A stretch of 63,778 bases of DNA from Thauera linaloolentis 47Lol = DSM 12138 (GTDB taxonomy: Bacteria; Pseudomonadota; Gammaproteobacteria; Burkholderiales; Rhodocyclaceae): positions 1 through 63,778 of the forward strand of contig NZ_AMXE01000012.1 of the NCBI RefSeq assembly GCF_000310205.1. The letters are read 5' to 3'. Shown here piece after piece: positions 7,879 through 54,197 of the stretch. How positions within the stretch are numbered: the stretch's first letter is position 1; the number at the start of each line of letters is the position of its first letter. Made by a program: the position numbers and the translations under genes. The notes under the pieces were generated by a model, which saw nothing but the letters and a program-made list of their open reading frames with translations, searched no databases and had not been told where the DNA came from.

Positions 7879-8623
7879 ACACGACTTGCGCCAAGCGCCT
7901 TTGAATGAAAAAAGCCCGGTTTCCCTGCGGGGCTCTCGCTGCACTGCCCGAAGCCTGCTCGCCGCAGCCGTGATCGCCGTCTGCAGTCTTGGCGTGAATA
8001 CGGCCCTGGCCGGCACTTTCGATGATGCGCGCAATGCCGCCACGTTGGGCGATGCGAAAGGGCTCTCGAGCCTGATCGATGGCGGCATCGGGCCGGACAG
8101 CGCCGATGCCAACGGCAACACGCTGCTGATCCTCGCCGCGCGCGAAGGCCAGGCCGCCGTGATCGAGGTCTTGCTGAAGCGCGGCGCGGCGGTCGATTAC
8201 CGCAACCCCGCCGGCGATTCGGCCCTGATGCTGGCCGTGCTGGGCGGCCATGACGAGGCCGCACGTGCGCTGCTCGCGGGGGGGGCGAAAGTGAATCACG
8301 AAGGCTGGGCGCCGCTGCACTACGCCGCATTCGAGGGCCGCGATGCGCTGCTCGACGCGCTGCTTGGCGCTGGTGCGGACGTCAATGCCAGGGCGCCGAA
8401 TCTGGCCACGCCCTTGATGCTCGCCGCGCGCAACGGCCATGCCGGCATGGTGCGCCGCTTGCTGGCGATACCGGGAACCGATCTGAACGCCCTGAACGAT
8501 GCCGGGCTGTCGGCCGATGCCTGGGCGCGGCAGAACCGCAATACCGACATCGCCGCGCTGATCGAGGCCGAACGCAAGCGCCGCGGCCTGCCGGCCCCGG
8601 CGCTGCGGATCACGATCGAGTAG
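7859..8623 (+). CDS. Ankyrin repeat protein, secreted or periplasmic
   Basis: A 254-residue protein with an N-terminal basic and hydrophobic segment (ARSLLAAAVIAVCSLGVNTALAG, about residues 30-52) that looks like a signal peptide. About five to six ankyrin repeats follow, for example NGNTLLILAAREGQAAVIEVLL, SALMLAVLGGHDEAARALL and TPLMLAARNGHAGMVRRLL. Ankyrin repeats bind proteins; no enzyme domain is present. The first 20 bases overlap tatD, and the cytoplasmic stretch before the signal is long (about 28 residues), so translation might begin further in. A G8 run lies at 8278-8285. The partner is unknown. Confidence 0.8.
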   Translation: MHKNPSEHDLRQAPLNEKSPVSLRGSRCTARSLLAAAVIAVCSLGVNTALAGTFDDARNAATLGDAKGLSSLIDGGIGPDSADANGNTLLILAAREGQAAVIEVLLKRGAAVDYRNPAGDSALMLAVLGGHDEAARALLAGGAKVNHEGWAPLHYAAFEGRDALLDALLGAGADVNARAPNLATPLMLAARNGHAGMVRRLLAIPGTDLNALNDAGLSADAWARQNRNTDIAALIEAERKRRGLPAPALRITIE

Positions 8624-8657
8624 CGTCGAATGGCGCCGCTGTGGGAATGGCGCCGCT

Positions 8658-10130
8658 TCAGTCTTCCAGCGCGCGCACCTTCACCGTGCGCCCCTTGAGC
8701 CTGCCGGCCGACAGGCGGCGCACGGCGTGCGGGGCGATGGCACGCGCCACGGCGACGTAGGTGATCTGGTCGGTGACGGTGATCCTGCCGACCTGCTCGC
8801 GGGTGAAGCCGGCTTCGCCAGTCAGCGCGCCGAGCACGTCGCCGGGGCGGATCTTGTCCTTGCGCCCGCCCAGGATCATCAGCGTGCTCATCGGCGCCCG
8901 CAGCGGCGGAGCGTCGCCGGCCGCGCCGCCGTCCCGCAGATCGGCGCCATCCTGCCAGGCGGGCTCGAAGCCGACGGCCTGCGCGATTGCCGCCACGCGG
9001 CGGCGGTCGGCATTGCTGCACAGGCTGAGGGCGAGCCCTTCGGCCTCGCCGCGGCCGGTGCGGCCGATGCGATGGACGTAGATATCCGGGTCGGGGGTGA
9101 CATCGACGTTGATGACGGCCTCGAGCTGCGCGATGTCCAGCCCGCGCGCGGCGACATCCGTCGCCACCAGCACCGTGCAGCTCTGGTTGGCGAAGCGGAT
9201 CAGTACCTGGTCGCGTTCGCGCTGCTCCATGTCGCCGTGCAATGCGAGCGCGTCGACGCCCTCCGCGCGCAGCAGCTCGACCAGCGCACGGCACTGCTGG
9301 CGGGTGTTGCAGAAGGCCAGGGCGCTGGCCGGCCGATAGCGGCGCAGCAGCGTGACCACGGCCTGCAGGCGCGCCGGATGTTCGATTTCGTAGAAGAGCT
9401 GGCGGATCTTGCCGGCGGCGTGCCGTTCGGCGAGCCTGACCTCGGTGGGCGCATGCAGGAAGCGCTGCGCGAGCGAGGCAATGCCATCAGGGAAGGTGGC
9501 GGAGAACAGCAGCGTCTGCCGCTGCCGCGGGCAGTGGCTGGCGATCCAGGCGATGTCGTCGTGGAAGCCCATGTCCAGCATGCGGTCGGCCTCGTCGAGC
9601 ACCAGCGTGTCCAGGGCTTCCAGGGCCAGGCTCTCGCGCTGCAGGTGGTCCATGATGCGGCCGGGTGTTCCCACCACCACGTGCGCGCCGTGGGCGAGGC
9701 TTTCGCGCTGCGGCCGCATCGGCGTGCCGCCGCACAGCGCCAGCACCTTGATGTTGTCGGCGAAGCGCGCCAGGCGGCGGATTTCCTGTGTGACCTGGTC
9801 GGCCAGCTCTCGTGTCGGGCACAGCACCAGGGCCTGCACCGCGAGCCGGCGCGGATCGAGTCGGCACAGCAGCGGCAGGGCGAAGGCGGCGGTCTTGCCG
9901 CTGCCAGTCCTGGCCTGGGCGATTAAATCCCGCCCTTGCAGCGCGGGCGGTAGTGCGGCGTCTTGGATCGGCGTCATCGCCAGGTAGCCGAGCTGCCGGA
10001 GGTTGTCGAGCATGCCCGGCGGCAGCGGAAGCCCGCTGAAATCGCGGGGCGTCCCGACGGTCGAAGGGGAGGGGGATTCGGCGCTGTCGCCGCTTGGGGG
10101 GATAATGTCGTCCATGCGCAATTCTGACAT
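8658..10130 (-). CDS. dbpA: ATP-dependent RNA helicase DbpA
   Basis: A 490-residue DEAD-box helicase. Core motifs are in order: [13 protein letters not shown] (motif I), PTRELADQV (Ia), VVGTPGRI (Ib), [13 protein letters not shown] (II), LLFSATFP (III), [14 protein letters not shown] (V) and [15 protein letters not shown] (VI). The C-terminal RNA-binding domain ([23 protein letters not shown] and later [13 protein letters not shown]) identifies DbpA, which binds hairpin 92 of 23S rRNA and acts in 50S assembly. ATG 10130 is used; ATG 10115 is an alternative. It is convergent with the ankyrin gene and divergent from yjdM. Confidence 0.93.
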
Positions 10131-10213
10131 CAGGCCCGGGCGGGCGCACGCCGGCGCGTTTCGTGCCCGGCGACAGGCCCGGGCGTTTTGACCATAACGA
10201 CAAGGAAAACAGC

Positions 10214-10555
10214 ATGAGCAGTCTGCCCAAGTGTCCCGAATGCAGCTCCGAATACACCTACGAGGACGGCATCAACTACGTCTGTCCGGAGTGTGCGCAC
10301 GAGTGGCCGCAAGCGGCCGCCGAAGAGACGGGCGAGGCCGGGAAGGTGTTCAAGGATGCCAATGGCAACGTGTTGCAGGATGGCGACAGCGTCACGGTGA
10401 TCAAGGACCTGAAGGTCAAGGGTTCGTCGCTGGTGGTGAAAGTCGGCACCAAGGTCAAGAACATCCGCCTGATCGACGGCGACCATGACATCGACTGCAA
10501 GATCGATGGCATCGGCGCGATGAAGCTGAAGTCGGAGTTCGTGCGCAAGGCCTGA
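10214..10555 (+). CDS. yjdM: Zinc ribbon domain-containing alkylphosphonate utilization-type protein YjdM
   Basis: A 113-residue YjdM (formerly PhnA) family protein. The N-terminal zinc ribbon is [22 protein letters not shown] (two CPEC pairs), and the C-terminal part is a small beta domain ([28 protein letters not shown]...VRKA). Despite the old name, the protein is not needed for phosphonate use and its role is unknown. An in-frame start at 10163 would add 17 residues not seen in the family, so ATG 10214 with the upstream AAGGAAAA was chosen. It is convergent with the mscS-like gene; a 22-base palindrome lies between them. Confidence 0.88.
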
Positions 10556-10565
10556 CTTCGGCCTT

Positions 10566-10587
10566 CGCCGCGCCGGCCGGCGCGGCG
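10566..10587. terminator. Perfect 22-base GC palindrome between convergent genes
   Basis: CGCCGCGCCGG followed directly by CCGGCGCGGCG, with 11-base perfect arms and no spacer, sits between the ends of yjdM and the convergent mscS-like gene. It could act as a stem-loop ending both transcripts, but it lacks a T-run, so a Rho-assisted or RNA-stabilising role is as likely. Position and symmetry are seen directly; function is inferred. Confidence 0.4.
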
Positions 10588-10589
10588 GC

Positions 10590-11147
10590 TCAAGCCCGCG
10601 GCATGTTGCGCCAGCGCCGGGTCGCGCGCTGGAAAAACAGGCTGTTGGGCACCTGCAGCACCGTGTCGCTGCCGTCGGGCAGGCGCTCCTGCAAGGTGGT
10701 GTAGATCAGGTTGATGTCGGTCACCTGTCCTTTCAGCCCCGGTTTTTCGCCGTTTTCGAGCAACTCGACATGGTCGTGGAGGCGGAATGGCCGGGTGGTG
10801 AAGATCAGCATCGCGCAAAAGATGTTGGACAGCACGCTCCAGGCGGCGAAGAAGGCCACGGCCGCCACCGCGGCAAAGCCGGTGAAGGCGGTCCACAGCA
10901 CCGTGCCCGACACGCCGAAACGGTCCAGGATCGTCAGTAGCGCGCCGGCGTAGATCACGAAGGCATTGATGCGGCGTACGCCGATGACGAGTTCGGCCGG
11001 CAGGTTGTAGCGCTCGCCCAGGCGGCGCACGATGCGGCGCACCGCCATGTTCAGCAGCCAGGCGGCGAGCAGGATCAGCATCACCTGGAGGCCGAGGGTG
11101 ATGAATTCGAGCCAGGGCTGTGCCCATTCGGGAAGCAGTTGTTTCAT
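10590..11147 (-). CDS. Short MscS-family mechanosensitive channel
   Basis: A 185-residue small-conductance mechanosensitive channel homologue. There are predicted membrane segments at about residues 15-36, 58-78 and 82-112. The last is the Gly/Ala-rich pore helix (TGFAAVAAVAFFAAWSVLSN). The middle beta domain follows (RLHDHVELLENGEKPGLKGQVTDINLIYTTL ending in QVPNSLFFQ). The protein stops soon after, so the cytoplasmic vestibule's C-terminal alpha/beta domain of E. coli MscS (286 residues) is missing. Function as an osmotic release valve is inferred from the family. Confidence 0.82.
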   Translation of the reverse strand: MKQLLPEWAQPWLEFITLGLQVMLILLAAWLLNMAVRRIVRRLGERYNLPAELVIGVRRINAFVIYAGALLTILDRFGVSGTVLWTAFTGFAAVAAVAFFAAWSVLSNIFCAMLIFTTRPFRLHDHVELLENGEKPGLKGQVTDINLIYTTLQERLPDGSDTVLQVPNSLFFQRATRRWRNMPRA

Positions 11148-44179: not shown

Positions 44180-44316
44180 ATACATATTCTTAAATGCACT
44201 GCATTCGGCTGCAGCCGGGCGATTGACTGTCGCAACCATTTCAAGGCCGGAACCAACCGGTCGACGACCCGCAAAGGGTCAGCTTCAACCATTTGATCAG
44301 TTGAGGAGAGGTGAGC

Positions 44317-46281
<1,965 letters not shown>

Positions 46282-49534: not shown

Positions 49535-49903
49535 ATGGCCAAGAAGATCCTGATTGCAGACGATGAACAAAATATCGTCATATCCCTGGAATTCCTCATG
49601 AAGCGGGAGGGCTTCGAGGTAGTGGTGGCAAACGATGGCGAGGAGGCGGCGAGGCGCATCCGCAGCGACTGTCCGGACCTGGTCCTGCTCGACGTGATGA
49701 TGCCCAAGAAGAGCGGCTTCGAGGTTTGCCAGGAGATCAAGGCCGATCCGGCCATGGCCGCGGTCCGCATCCTGATGCTGACGGCCAAGGGGCGCGACAC
49801 CGAGGTGGCGAAGGGCCTGGCCCTGGGGGCGGACGCCTACATGACGAAGCCGTTCTCGACCAAGGAACTGGTGGAGAAGGTGCGCGGTCTGCTGGGGGCC
49901 TGA
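49535..49903 (+). CDS. Single-domain response regulator
   Basis: A 122-residue CheY-like receiver with no output domain. The acidic pocket is DDE (residues 9-11), phospho-acceptor Asp53 in LVLLDVMMP, Thr/Ala in MLTAKG and Lys105 in YMTKPFS; every key residue is intact. It follows the symporter-kinase by 31 bases and precedes the exonuclease fusion by 3. It is thus the likely kinase partner, but differs from CrbR, which carries a LuxR-type DNA-binding domain. It must act through protein contact or feed a phosphorelay. Confidence 0.9.
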   Translation: MAKKILIADDEQNIVISLEFLMKREGFEVVVANDGEEAARRIRSDCPDLVLLDVMMPKKSGFEVCQEIKADPAMAAVRILMLTAKGRDTEVAKGLALGADAYMTKPFSTKELVEKVRGLLGA

Positions 49904-49906
49904 GCG

Positions 49907-52111
49907 ATGTCCGCGCGCTCGAGATTCGCCCTGGCGGTCATCGTCCTGGGCCTGCTGATGACGGGCCCCTTCATCCTCACCGCCCTCATCGTCTGGTTCG
50001 AGACCCGCGACGAAGGCCGGCAGCAGCTGATGGATGTCCTGGTGCCCCATCTCGGGGTCGGCACGATGCTGACCGCGGTGGGCTTCGCGGCCGGTGTCGG
50101 CGTGTTGCGCATCCTGTTCCGCCAGTATGTGCAGGGCCTGCTGCGCATGGCTGAGAACCTGCGCCTGATGCTCGGCGCCAACCGCGGCTTCCGCGTCCAG
50201 CCCGAGGGCCCGCCCGAAGTCCGCATGCTGGCGAGCGCGGCGAACGAGCTGGCGAGTCAGCGCGACGAGATCTTCGGCGACGTCGAGGCCCAGATCGCGC
50301 GGGCCAAGGATTCCGTCGAACAGGAGAAGAACCGCCTCGCCGCGCTGATGTCCGAGCTGACCCAGAGCGTCGTGGTGTGCAACCTCGATGGCCGCATCCT
50401 GCTCTACAACAACCGCGCGCGCCTGCAGTTCCGCGCCCTGTCGGACGCGCCCGGCGTGGCCGGCGGCGGAGAGCTGATCGGCCTCGGGCGTTCGATCTAT
50501 GCCGTGTTCGAGCGCAACCTGATCGCCCACGCGCTGGAAACCATCCAGCAGCGCCTCAGGCGCGGCGTCGCCCAGCCGCAGGCCAACTTCGTCACCACCA
50601 CGCGTGCCGGGCAACTGCTGCGCGTGCAGATGGCGCCGGTGCTGTCGGTGGCGAAGCCGCAGGGCGGAGCGGACGCGGACAGCGCCAAGGCCGCAGGCGA
50701 GGCCGAGCGCACGCAGACCGGCTTTATCCTGATGCTCGACAACATCACGCGCAACTTCGAGGCCGAGTCGCGCCGCGACCAGATGCTGCACAAGCTCACC
50801 GAGGGCAACCGCGCTGCGCTGGCGAACGTGCGTGCGGCGGCGGAAATGCTCGAGTACGGCGACCTGCCCGACGACATGCGCGACCGCTTCCGCAGCGTCA
50901 TCCGCGACGAGGTGCAGGGCATGAGCCAGCGCCTGAACGAGACCGCCGACGCCTTCGCCGATTCGCTGAAATCGCGCTGGCCGCTCGAGGAAATGCTGGG
51001 GGCGGACCTCGTCGCGGCGGTGCAGCGCCGCATCGAGCAGCGCATCGAGCTGCGCACCAAGCTCGAGGAAATCGACGAGAACCTGTGGGTGAAGGTCGAC
51101 AGCTTCTCGCTGATCCAGGCCCTGACCTACCTGGCGAGCCGCCTGTCCGACGAGTTCGAGGTGCGCGAGGTGCGCTTCCGCCTCACCGCTGCTGGGCGCC
51201 TCGTACACCTCGACCTGATCTGGTCCGGCCAGGCGATGAGCACCGAGACAGTGATGAGCTGGGAGCTCGAACCGATGAAGATCGAGGACGAGAGCAGCCC
51301 GCTGACGGTGCGCGACGTCATCGACCGCCACGACGGCGAGATGTGGCTGGAGCGCGAGAAGGTGCGCCACCGCGCCTTCTTCCGTGTCCTGCTGCCGGCC
51401 GCGATGCCGCAGGACCAGGCCGACGCCGAACTCTTCCTGCGCGGCGAGAGCCGGCCCGAATACTATGATTTCGACCTCTTCGCCTGGTCGGAAAGGTCGC
51501 TCGAGATCGAGGACCGTCCGCTCACCGAACTGGCGTTCACGGTATTCGACACCGAAACGACCGGGCTCAACCCTTCGCAGGGCGACGAGATCATCCAGAT
51601 CGGCGCGACCCGCATCCTCAACGGCAAGCTGCTGCGCAACGAGTCCTTCGAGCAGTTGATCGACCCGCGCCGGCCGCTGGCGCCGGAGTCGGCCGAAATC
51701 CACGGCATCACCGCAGAGATGCTGAAGGGCCAGCCGACGATCGATTCCGTGCTGCCGGCCTTCCATGCGTTTGCCGCGGATACCGTGCTGATCGCCCACA
51801 ACGCCGCTTTCGACATGCGCTTCCTGCAGCTCAAGGAGGCGGCCACGGGCTTGCGTTTCGACCAGCCGGTCATCGACACCTTGCTGCTGTCGGCGGTCGT
51901 GCACCCGAACCAGGAATCGCACCGCCTGGAGGCGATCGCCGAGCGACTCGGCTTGACCATCGTCGGCCGGCACACCGCGCTCGGCGACGCGATCGTGACC
52001 GCGGAGGTGTTCCTCAAGCTCGTCCCGCTGCTGGCGGAGAAAGGCATCCGCACGCTGCGCGAAGCGCGTGAGGCCGCCGAGAAGACCTATTACGCACGGA
52101 TCAAGTATTGA
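49907..52111 (+). CDS. Membrane sensor-like protein fused to DEDDh 3'-5' exonuclease
   Basis: A 734-residue fusion. The N-terminus has two membrane helices (about residues 8-30 and 47-68), then a HAMP-like segment, a coiled coil, a PAS-like domain (about 140-290; NRLAALMSELTQSVVVCNLDGRILLYNNRARLQF), and a degenerate kinase-like core (about 290-510). That core lacks a clear H-box His and the N and G boxes of an ATPase. The C-terminal domain is a complete DnaQ/PolC-type exonuclease: Asp548/Glu550 in FDTETTGL, Asp636 in AHNAAFDMRF, His689 and Asp694 in RHTALGDA. It lies between the receiver and the symporter in the acetate operon. Its function is unknown. Confidence 0.88.
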   Translation: MSARSRFALAVIVLGLLMTGPFILTALIVWFETRDEGRQQLMDVLVPHLGVGTMLTAVGFAAGVGVLRILFRQYVQGLLRMAENLRLMLGANRGFRVQPEGPPEVRMLASAANELASQRDEIFGDVEAQIARAKDSVEQEKNRLAALMSELTQSVVVCNLDGRILLYNNRARLQFRALSDAPGVAGGGELIGLGRSIYAVFERNLIAHALETIQQRLRRGVAQPQANFVTTTRAGQLLRVQMAPVLSVAKPQGGADADSAKAAGEAERTQTGFILMLDNITRNFEAESRRDQMLHKLTEGNRAALANVRAAAEMLEYGDLPDDMRDRFRSVIRDEVQGMSQRLNETADAFADSLKSRWPLEEMLGADLVAAVQRRIEQRIELRTKLEEIDENLWVKVDSFSLIQALTYLASRLSDEFEVREVRFRLTAAGRLVHLDLIWSGQAMSTETVMSWELEPMKIEDESSPLTVRDVIDRHDGEMWLEREKVRHRAFFRVLLPAAMPQDQADAELFLRGESRPEYYDFDLFAWSERSLEIEDRPLTELAFTVFDTETTGLNPSQGDEIIQIGATRILNGKLLRNESFEQLIDPRRPLAPESAEIHGITAEMLKGQPTIDSVLPAFHAFAADTVLIAHNAAFDMRFLQLKEAATGLRFDQPVIDTLLLSAVVHPNQESHRLEAIAERLGLTIVGRHTALGDAIVTAEVFLKLVPLLAEKGIRTLREAREAAEKTYYARIKY

Positions 52112-52151: not shown

Positions 52152-54197
52152 GTGAGCGCCCAATCAGCCTTCGCGAGCCGGCTCAAGCGTTATTACGCCT
52201 GGTATACGGGCATCTTCATGCTGTTCGTCGCGGGGCTCGCCGTCGGTGAGTACTTCGGCCTGTCCCAGCACATGATCGGCCACGTCTTCCTGTTCGCGAC
52301 CATCGCGATCTACGCCGGCATCGGCGTCATGAGCCGCACCTCGAACGTGTCCGAGTACTACGTCGCCGGGCGCCGCGTCCCGGCGCTGTTCAACGGCATG
52401 GCGACCGCGGCCGACTGGATGAGCGCCGCATCCTTCATCGGCCTCGCCGGGACGCTGTATTTCTCCGGCTTCGAGGGCCTGGCCTTCGTCGCCGGATGGA
52501 CCGGCGGCTTCGTCCTGGTGGCGTTGCTGATCGCGCCCTACCTGCGCAAGTTCGGCCAATACACCATCCCGGACTTTCTCGGTGCGCGCTACCAGGGCAA
52601 CGTCGCGCGCGTGGTCGGGCTGGTCGCGACCATCCTCGCTAGCTTCGTCTATCTGGTCGCGCAGATCTACGGCGTCGGGCTCGTCACCAGCCGCTTCATC
52701 AGCATCGAGTTCGAGATCGGCCTGTTCATCGGCCTGGCCGGCATCCTGCTGTGCTCCTTCCTGGGCGGCATGCGCGCCGTGACCTGGACCCAGGTCGCGC
52801 AGTACGTGATCCTGGTCATCGCCTATCTGGTGCCGGTCGTGATCCTGTCGTACAAGCTCACCGACATCCCGATCCCGCAGGCGGTGTACGGCGCCGTGCT
52901 GCAGCAGATCAGCGAGCGGGAACAGCAACTGTTCGATGCGCCCGAGGAGGTCGAGGTGCGCGAGCTGTACCGCCTGCGGGCGGAGGGCTACGCGGCCAGG
53001 ATCGAGAGCCTGCCCGAGTCGCTCGATCTCGAGCGGCGCGCCATGATCGAGCGGCTCAACGCGCTGCGCCTGGGGGATGCGCCGGCGCGCGAGATCGCCT
53101 CGTCCGAGCGCGCGCTGCGCGATCTGCCCCGCACGCCCGCGGAGGCGAAGGTCCAGTGGGAAAAGGCCCGCCTCGAGGCGCTCGAACGGTCGCGGCCGCC
53201 GCCGCGCCATGCCGAGGCGCATCCGGGGCGCACGCCCGAGGAATCCAACATCGCGCGCAACAACTTCCTGGCGCTGATGTTCGTGCTGATGCTGGGTACC
53301 GCCGGGCTGCCCCATATCCTGATGCGCTACTACACCACGCCGGGCGTGGCCGACGCACGCAAGTCGGTGCTGTGGTCGATGTTCTTCATCTTCCTGCTCT
53401 ACGTCACGGCGCCGGCCTACGCGGTGTTCGCCAAGTGGGAGGTCTACCATAACGTGGTGGGGTCCAGCCTCGACATCCTGCCCGACTGGGTGGCGTCATG
53501 GGGCAAGGTCGGGCTGGTGAAGATCGAGGACCTGAACGCCGACGGCATCCTGCAGCTCGCCGAACTGCGCCTGAACACCGACGTGATCGTGCTCGCCACG
53601 CCCGAGATCGCCGGCCTGCCTTATGTCGTCTCGGGCCTGGTGGCCGCGGGCGGGCTGGCGGCGGCATTGTCCACCGCCGACGGGCTGCTGCTGACGATCT
53701 CCAATGCGCTGTCGCACGATCTTTATTACAAGGTCATCAAGCCCACGGCCTCGGCGCACCGCCGCCTGGTGATCTCCAAGTCGCAACTGCTGGTGGTGGC
53801 GGTGGTGGCGGCCTGGGTCGCGTCGCTGCGCCCGGACAACATCCTGTTCACGGTCGGGCTGGCGTTCTCGATCGGGGCCTCTGCGCTGTTTCCGGCGCTG
53901 GTGCTCGGCATCTTCTGGAAGCGGGCCAACCGTCCGGGCGCGGTGGCCGGCATGCTCGTCGGGCTGTCGGTCACGGTCTTCTACATGGTGCGCACGCACA
54001 GTTTCTTCGGCGGCTCGATGCAGCATGCCTGGTTCGACATCAGCCCCATTTCGGCCGGCGTGTTCGGCGTGCCGCTCGGTTTTTTCACGATCGTCGCCGT
54101 GAGCCTGCTCACCCGCCCGCCGCCGCAGCAGATCCAGGATCTCGTCGACTACGTGCGCTATCCGCAACTGCCGTCGGATCTGCCGCGCAGCGACTGA
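52152..54197 (+). CDS. ActP-like sodium:solute symporter (VC_2705 subfamily)
   Basis: A 681-residue SSS-family cation symporter with about 13 helices, probably for acetate or another short carboxylate. Features are TSNVSEYYVAGRRVPALFNGMATAADWMSAASF, GQYTIPDFLGARY and SGLVAAGGLAAALSTADGLLLTISNALSHDLYYK. A hydrophilic, partly charged insert of about 135 residues (about 234-369) sits between two helices, a mark of the VC_2705-type subfamily that is larger than ActP (549 residues). The start is GTG 52152. It ends the acetate module; clpB follows with its own promoter. Confidence 0.9.
   Translation: MSAQSAFASRLKRYYAWYTGIFMLFVAGLAVGEYFGLSQHMIGHVFLFATIAIYAGIGVMSRTSNVSEYYVAGRRVPALFNGMATAADWMSAASFIGLAGTLYFSGFEGLAFVAGWTGGFVLVALLIAPYLRKFGQYTIPDFLGARYQGNVARVVGLVATILASFVYLVAQIYGVGLVTSRFISIEFEIGLFIGLAGILLCSFLGGMRAVTWTQVAQYVILVIAYLVPVVILSYKLTDIPIPQAVYGAVLQQISEREQQLFDAPEEVEVRELYRLRAEGYAARIESLPESLDLERRAMIERLNALRLGDAPAREIASSERALRDLPRTPAEAKVQWEKARLEALERSRPPPRHAEAHPGRTPEESNIARNNFLALMFVLMLGTAGLPHILMRYYTTPGVADARKSVLWSMFFIFLLYVTAPAYAVFAKWEVYHNVVGSSLDILPDWVASWGKVGLVKIEDLNADGILQLAELRLNTDVIVLATPEIAGLPYVVSGLVAAGGLAAALSTADGLLLTISNALSHDLYYKVIKPTASAHRRLVISKSQLLVVAVVAAWVASLRPDNILFTVGLAFSIGASALFPALVLGIFWKRANRPGAVAGMLVGLSVTVFYMVRTHSFFGGSMQHAWFDISPISAGVFGVPLGFFTIVAVSLLTRPPPQQIQDLVDYVRYPQLPSDLPRSD

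Follow-up and report, generated by a model that had tools for sequence, protein, structure and literature searches.

In the CrbS/CrbR system a kinase with a symporter-like part is encoded near acs and a sodium/solute symporter, and the response regulator carries a DNA-binding domain. DivK of Caulobacter is a single-domain receiver. Its phosphorylated form is read by DivL, a protein that joins a PAS sensor to a dead kinase core (PMC4211667). Here we describe a gene at 49907-52111 in a stretch of 63,778 nucleotides from Thauera linaloolentis 47Lol (contig NZ_AMXE01000012.1; the whole stretch is called the window below), whose protein is similar to DivL in its sensor and dead core and whose surroundings are similar to those of CrbS/CrbR. 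Unlike the DivL-DivK pair, the window protein adds a DEDDh domain in the same chain and has its receiver gene adjacent, and unlike CrbR the window receiver (122 residues) has no output domain. We propose, at a probability of about 0.4, that this fusion is a receiver-controlled DEDDh phosphodiesterase, part of a module for organic-acid uptake, where it would oppose a DUF294 nucleotidyltransferase.

GlnD and GlnE of nitrogen control modify proteins, and GlnD carries an HD uridylyl-removing domain. With DUF294 proteins they share a pol-beta type motif and a C-terminal domain from the same Pfam clan, DUF294_C having been placed in one group with the GlnD and GlnE C-terminal domains (PMC3710099), whereas the DUF294 proteins scanned by us have no HD domain and the eraser that we propose has a DEDDh fold. 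A nuclease as an eraser of protein nucleotidylylation is also described, namely RNase Z, the deAMPylase of SelO substrates, which takes AMP off proteins (PMC12663964), but its fold is metallo-beta-lactamase and not DEDDh, and its writer is a pseudokinase. Each half of the proposed switch has a precedent. DEDD-superfamily oligoribonuclease and E. coli Pol III epsilon hydrolyse the p-nitrophenyl ester of TMP (pNP-TMP; PMC6390093, PMC7694242), and by our own comparison its bond would resemble that of a nucleotidyl-tyrosine.

The closest genetic data come from Pseudomonas putida, where pp_0354 and pp_0353 belong to one operon, controlled by MxtR/ErdR (CrbS/CrbR); on pyruvate growth of the pp_0353 mutant is delayed and the actP-I mutant is impaired too, while the pp_0354 mutant is not, and the authors name pp_0354 a CBS-domain protein and speculate that pp_0353 degrades mRNA (PMC9927547). 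This PP_0354/PP_0353 (PA3233/PA3232 type) pair is like ours in having a CBS-type gene beside an RNase_T-family exonuclease gene with a part in acetate/pyruvate use, and unlike it in that the exonuclease has no reported membrane, PAS or pseudo-kinase parts and that the known control is transcriptional. The PA3232-PA3235 cluster of P. aeruginosa is up on propionate (PMC9765439), and a plasmid stretch of the same arrangement was found by us to hold DUF485, an acetate symporter, a protein with cyclic-nucleotide (cNMP)-binding and CBS domains (motif GS...DQD) and an exonuclease whose DEDDh residues are complete; the genes of these last two proteins overlap. In P. fluorescens the pflu5625 protein of the same regulon has cAMP-binding, CBS and nucleotidyltransferase domains and was proposed to act by nucleotidylation, so that this role for a CBS-nucleotidyltransferase protein is already in print (PMC5715377). 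In the open-licence literature searched, judged by titles and the openings of abstracts, we found no description of the fusion, of a characterised family to which it would belong, or of DUF294 and DEDDh proteins as writer and eraser, which is weak evidence of absence; a preliminary description of the gene, made from the letters alone, knew of no described pathway in which carbon or membrane signals control a membrane-tethered nuclease.

The fusion protein and its kinase-like core

The gene is a single unbroken frame with the coordinates that the preliminary description gave, and all of its parts listed here lie on the + strand.

49907..52111, +, fusion protein of 734 residues: membrane sensor, pseudo-histidine kinase and DEDDh domain
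49919..50122, +, two hydrophobic membrane-helix candidates, residues ~5-32 and ~44-72 (hydropathy)
50324..50752, +, PAS-like region, residues ~140-282 (profile searches; boundaries by eye)
50753..50962, +, DHp-like helices without the phospho-acceptor His, E299 being at 50801-50803 (alignments; boundaries by eye)
50963..51406, +, CA-like (ATPase-like) region in which Y408, R412 and W439 replace the N-box Asn and the G1 Asp (alignments; boundaries by eye)
51452..51481, +, RPEYYDFDLF, a conserved motif at the junction, residues 516-525 (alignments)
51542..52012, +, DEDDh exonuclease domain, residues 546-702; D548, E550, D636, H689, D694 (PF00929)

The kinase-like core is homologous to the active neighbour kinases (hhalign probability 97.7, E 2.4e-12, 210 columns), yet in the aligned columns the phospho-acceptor His of the H box is replaced by E299, the N-box Asn by Y408 and R412, and the G1 Asp by W439, which bears out the earlier impression of a core without H, N and G boxes. 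In the neighbour kinases all four residues (the H, N-box Asn pair and G1 Asp columns) are kept in 100 of 100 rows. Over 50 fusion rows the replacements are themselves kept, with E in 49 and D in 1 at position 299, Y in 49 and F in 1 at 408, R in 50 at 412 and W in 50 at 439. Because they are kept in 49-50 of 50 rows, the core looks like a conserved pseudo-kinase rather than a decaying kinase, and, as in DivL, the kinase residues are gone while homology to the kinase core is retained. A complete ATP-binding kinase as the sensor part, a finding that by the preliminary description would have refuted its reading, is excluded by the loss of the His, the N-box Asn and the G1 Asp. The 50 rows (alignment A3) are the window sequence and 49 of 78 full-length rows; L062, a split match, was unused, L067 and L089 were cut, and L043 is excluded from alignments A1 and A3. 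L043 (G069, 8381-10951) and L062 (1258-3001) each have the fusion gene broken into two frames or two matches, which may reflect a frameshift, a pseudogene or an assembly error. For the window gene such an artefact is ruled out by its single open frame and by the same-genus copy L058, also in one frame, which is 88% identical in the sensor part and 97% in the exonuclease domain.

Residues 546-702 score 125.8 bits against PF00929 (cut-off 24) and belong to the exonuclease superfamily by this profile. The five catalytic residues are present as originally numbered and are the same in all 20 rows of a divergent alignment picked by hand and in all 50 rows of the second one, both of which include the window sequence. 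The best solved-structure match is the PolC-type exonuclease domain 2p1j (E 3.2e-36). The domain is followed by the last 28 residues, 707-734 (52025-52108), which close in a conserved tail containing Tyr and Arg and equal the catalytic domain in conservation (mean identity 82% against 79%). In a tree of 71 DEDDh-domain rows a group of 35 consists of soluble nucleotidyltransferase-linked exonucleases, and the other 36 are fusions, a few soluble ones, a DEDDh-DUF294 fusion and, from the own genome, three generic DEDDh proteins; generic rows are too few for the tree to decide whether the domain was recruited once or more than once. An anti-phage role was considered and set aside, the PADLOC matches (E up to 0.01) being a generic DEDDh model and the candidate PDC-S48 only; the one nucleotidyltransferase scanned had no PADLOC match.

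The sensor part has the two membrane helices expected earlier, as hydropathy candidates, and of the HAMP and PAS-like regions that were seen with them the latter stands, while HAMP is confirmed by no model. PAS_4 matches 12 of 19 aligned fusion members (E up to 0.1), and a profile of these 19 members finds the VicK-like kinase 4i5s in the PDB (E 4.9e-10), a match that covers the PAS-like region and also bears on the homology to DHp and CA domains. The PAS-like region of the window protein is 77% identical on average to the other 49 rows of the 50-row alignment. The window protein's own sensor part matches no Pfam model, and a PAS_4 match below cut-off falls on its exonuclease domain and is taken as chance. 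By the sensor part the best named relative is Thauera butanivorans (94%).

DUF294 genes and their DEDDh neighbours

The evidence for a nucleotidyltransferase partner comes from a sample of 120 genomes of the phylum, in which 62 strong DUF294 matches were found (E 1.5e-27 or better, the three of the own genome excluded; weaker matches, from E 4.5e-9 upward, were presumed to be of the GlnD type and left out). A DEDDh open reading frame lies within 6 kb of 56 of these 62 genes and within 2.5 kb of 55, where gene density would lead one to expect about 1 to 4 of 62; one of the 56 neighbours scores only 29 bits (L238), and part of the 62 were examined with a 1.5 kb flank only. In 40 control stretches (12.5 kb each, 19 genomes), set at round-number positions on long contigs and not by a random generator, the same profile found no DEDDh frame. 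The profile was made from eight seeds and is not a neutral detector, because several seeds adjoin DUF294 genes and two are the same gene. One genome joins the two enzymes in one frame of 712 codons: a DEDDh domain (21-178) comes first, then two CBS domains, DUF294 (390-531) and DUF294_C (570-703). The catalytic motifs of both enzymes are present, and the gene lies next to those for a symporter and DUF4212. Across the family, a strong DUF294 match occurs in 101 of 103 fusion-bearing genomes and in 17 of 47 others (Fisher p 3e-17, a value that ignores kinship).

The nucleotidyltransferases keep the pol-beta motif GS/GG...DxD in 80 of 80 cases. Five DUF294 proteins scanned with Pfam all have DUF294 and DUF294_C, four of them CBS domains and three of these four a cNMP-binding domain; neither an HD nor a second nucleotidyltransferase domain was found in the five or in L200. 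Other settings also occur. In L239 (6406-8961) there is a sensory form of 852 residues with Cache and PAS before DUF294, for which no DEDDh neighbour was found. On a Vibrio cyclitrophicus plasmid (L241, 2404-4993) a DUF294-exonuclease pair is surrounded by pectin-type sugar genes, and a sodium/solute symporter lies some 4.7 kb off, which shows that acetate is not the only setting of the pairing.

The soluble partners are less uniform than the fusion. Among 27 rows, 16 have Glu instead of the third Asp, 7 the standard D-E-D-H-D and 4 have lost more residues (two of the 4 are the same own-genome gene), and the fusion itself does not have the third-Asp change. It may be that the soluble partners have a target unlike that of a standard exonuclease, or that some are inactive. 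The Glu type comprises L040 (9161-9991) and 15 rows from L140-L163, and the two that were scanned, L040 and L140, pass NCBIfam PRK09146. Dead-looking partners beside an intact-motif nucleotidyltransferase were seen in L041 (5560-6366), L051 (11717-12382) and L052 (4954-5886), with the residual motifs N-E-N-H-D, DSVRN and DVVRN.

The own genome has three DUF294 genes. That on contig C56 adjoins an exonuclease with Glu as the third catalytic residue, and that on C24 a dead-looking exonuclease; the third, a CBS-DUF294 gene on C80 (L200, 6940-8391), has no DEDDh neighbour in the 16 kb read and lies near a cytochrome cd1-type gene. The C24 protein is closest (58-59%) to the long nucleotidyltransferases that stand inside the fusion operon in L051 and L052, where the soluble exonuclease is dead-looking as well. 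From this likeness, which is similarity and not demonstrated orthology, the window fusion may have kept its nucleotidyltransferase partner in trans.

Gene order around the fusion

In the window the order on the + strand is acs, sensor kinase, stand-alone receiver, fusion and symporter.

44311..46281, +, acs, for acetyl-CoA synthetase, on the upstream side of the kinase gene; 58% identical over 383 residues to the annotated acs in L039
46762..49503, +, sensor histidine kinase, 913 residues; HisKA and HATPase_c intact, symporter-like stretch in the N-terminal half
49535..49903, +, stand-alone receiver, 122 residues, without output domain (Response_reg)
52152..54197, +, VC_2705-family sodium/solute symporter, 40 bases past the fusion (TIGR03648)

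The stop codon of the receiver ends at 49903 and the fusion begins with an ATG at 49907, so the spacing of three bases reported before is right. In a Pfam scan the receiver gave Response_reg, one match below cut-off and nothing else, and D53 and K105 are kept in all 112 aligned receivers. The kinase has a 77-residue stretch in its N-terminal half that matches the symporter (E 2e-06). The gene downstream had been called ActP-like; it is a symporter, but of the VC_2705 family and not ActP proper, as it scores 781.5 bits against TIGR03648 (cut-off 320.75) and 173.9 against TIGR02711 (ActP; cut-off 1099.25). With acs, symporter and symporter-type kinase around the fusion, the acetate module of the preliminary description holds, the link to acetate or organic acids being one of gene order.

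The sensor part occurs in 103 of 150 family genomes, own genome counted, which rules out a local chance fusion. A set of 398 genomes of the phylum gave 33 rows at E 4.9e-28 or better, again with the own genome; the tally of 125 at E 0.001 contains many weak partial matches, including the DHp-CA part of the window's own active kinase. Plasmid relatives with at least 80% coverage are found in 17 listed records, 15 of them from Paracoccus or Cupriavidus (two without annotation at the match or altogether) and one from Ciceribacter, under the names exonuclease, DNA polymerase III subunit epsilon, hypothetical, or none; three plasmid loci were read for their neighbourhood.

The gene order proved conserved in the neighbourhood survey. 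In 80 named loci, which are the best matches among those listed and so biased toward the window's kin, there is within 6.5 kb a receiver in 76, a kinase in 73, a symporter in 50, and acs and a DUF294 nucleotidyltransferase in 38 each. Where both flanks are at least 6.5 kb long (47 loci), receiver and kinase are present in 47 each, the symporter in 36, acs in 28 and the nucleotidyltransferase in 23. The receiver is no more than 400 bases from the fusion in 111 of 119 loci. This count includes L042-L059, which were hand-picked, several of them for a nearby DUF294 match, and which also figure among the 80 nucleotidyltransferases and are excluded from the linkage rates; duplicates occur among the loci, L042 being the same as L107 in sequence. 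Of 19 loci from distant genomes all have the receiver and 17 the nucleotidyltransferase, although for 10 of them the DUF294 neighbour was already visible when they were picked; among the eight picked without that knowledge it is present in 6. In the 120-genome sample a DUF294 gene lies no more than 6 kb from 17 of the 18 strong fusion matches, and the 18th match is on a contig of 3,023 bases. Shorter forms (L220, L221) of 466-475 residues with a C-terminal DEDDh domain adjoin genes for nucleotidyltransferase, symporter, DUF4212 and acs, and the N-terminal part of L221 aligns with the profile at its PAS end (E 7.8e-7).

A proposed switch and its alternatives

The anatomy of the fusion, the loss of its kinase residues, the intact residues of the DEDDh domain, receiver and kinase, the gene order and the pairing of nucleotidyltransferase and DEDDh genes are all read from the sequences directly. 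The safest statement on this ground would be that the products of DEDDh and DUF294 genes work as a pair, whose DEDDh half in this family appears to be under two-component control. We propose that the symporter-type sensor kinase would phosphorylate the stand-alone receiver, and that the receiver in its phosphorylated form would bind the fusion at its dead DHp helices, much as phosphorylated DivK docks on DivL. This docking would alter the activity of the membrane-anchored DEDDh domain, the direction of control being presumed, and the domain would, by an equally presumed chemistry, strip the nucleotide that the DUF294 nucleotidyltransferase, with its pol-beta type motif and CBS domains, would attach. 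The modified target would most likely be a protein at the membrane, for example the symporter or its small subunit. The receiver as the switch, suggested already by the preliminary description, is plausible, and the two observations that bear on it are gene order and residue conservation. On a larger scale one may tentatively see here a family of reversible nucleotidylylation systems, in which DUF294 writes and DEDDh erases, with the eraser in our case controlled by a phosphorelay through a dead membrane kinase and setting organic-acid uptake. Loss of the eraser with retention of the writer would yield the pyruvate pattern of pp_0353 and pp_0354, and the P. putida genetics would therefore agree with the writer-eraser reading, as a fit and not as a proof.

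The role suggested in the preliminary description was RNA or DNA turnover, for which we found no specific evidence, and the DUF294 partner points to an antagonist pair instead. Somewhat less likely than the eraser, to our mind, is the rival case that the domain is an ordinary 3'-5' exonuclease acting on RNA (or single-stranded DNA) under carbon signals, for instance on mRNAs of transport and central metabolism, while the nucleotidyltransferase acts separately or extends RNA ends. The full DEDDh set and the high similarity to the exonuclease domains of PolC, DnaQ and DinG speak for it, as does the mRNA degradation speculated for pp_0353 (PMC9927547), but it does not by itself explain the regular adjacency and fusion of DUF294 and DEDDh, nor why the pyruvate phenotype in the same study follows deletion of pp_0353 and not of pp_0354. 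The CBS domains, and in the long forms cNMP-binding domains, of the nucleotidyltransferases would suit a small nucleotide signal, a di- or oligonucleotide made by the nucleotidyltransferase and degraded by the DEDDh enzyme, with these domains sensing related nucleotides, and the oligoribonuclease of the DEDD superfamily does take dinucleotide-sized substrates (PMC6390093); the grouping of DUF294_C with GlnD and GlnE of the glutamine synthetase system (PMC3710099) goes against this possibility, which we hold to be improbable. Least probable, to our mind, is a scaffold, in which the DEDDh domain mainly binds and the fusion anchors the receiver or the nucleotidyltransferase to the membrane, with a secondary role for catalysis: dead-looking exonuclease-like partners do adjoin intact nucleotidyltransferases (L041, L051, L052), but in the fusion the five catalytic residues are invariant throughout both alignments.

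A number of observations weigh against the receiver-controlled eraser as well. The closeness of the domain to 2p1j and hence to DNA exonucleases makes nucleic acid as its ordinary substrate quite possible. That DUF294 proteins modify proteins we infer from their grouping with GlnD and GlnE, and in our searches of the open-licence literature that named DUF294 we found no characterised member. Six of the 62 DUF294 genes have no DEDDh neighbour within 6 kb (G242:C76, G246:C82, G183:C71, G210:C1 with a contig end near, G247 at 812945, and G266:C118 on a contig of 6,533 bases), two fusion-bearing genomes, G030 (92% complete) and G093 (52% complete), have no strong DUF294 match, and the 17 fusion-less family genomes noted above carry DUF294 genes all the same. 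No nucleotidyltransferase is found in 24 of the 47 full-flank loci, and the window's own clade is among them, 17 being Thauera, Azoarcus, Aromatoleum, Pseudothauera or Denitromonas, 6 less precisely named and 1 Rhodoferax; the three DUF294 genes of the own genome are unlinked to the fusion locus. Glu-type and degraded soluble partners would not be predicted by a simple writer-eraser pair. The pp_0353 protein is a soluble relative and not a fusion, and a pp_0353 pp_0354 double mutant is not mentioned in the consulted sections of PMC9927547.

Across the sampled phylum DUF294 genes and the DEDDh genes next to them carry unknown-function or generic names, and given their regular pairing and the natural fusion, the two unknowns become a single pair that can be tested. 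If our proposal is true, the DEDDh fold would join the erasers of protein nucleotidylylation, acetate and pyruvate uptake would have a post-translational layer next to the CrbS/R switch, and a dead histidine kinase would govern an enzyme within the same chain.

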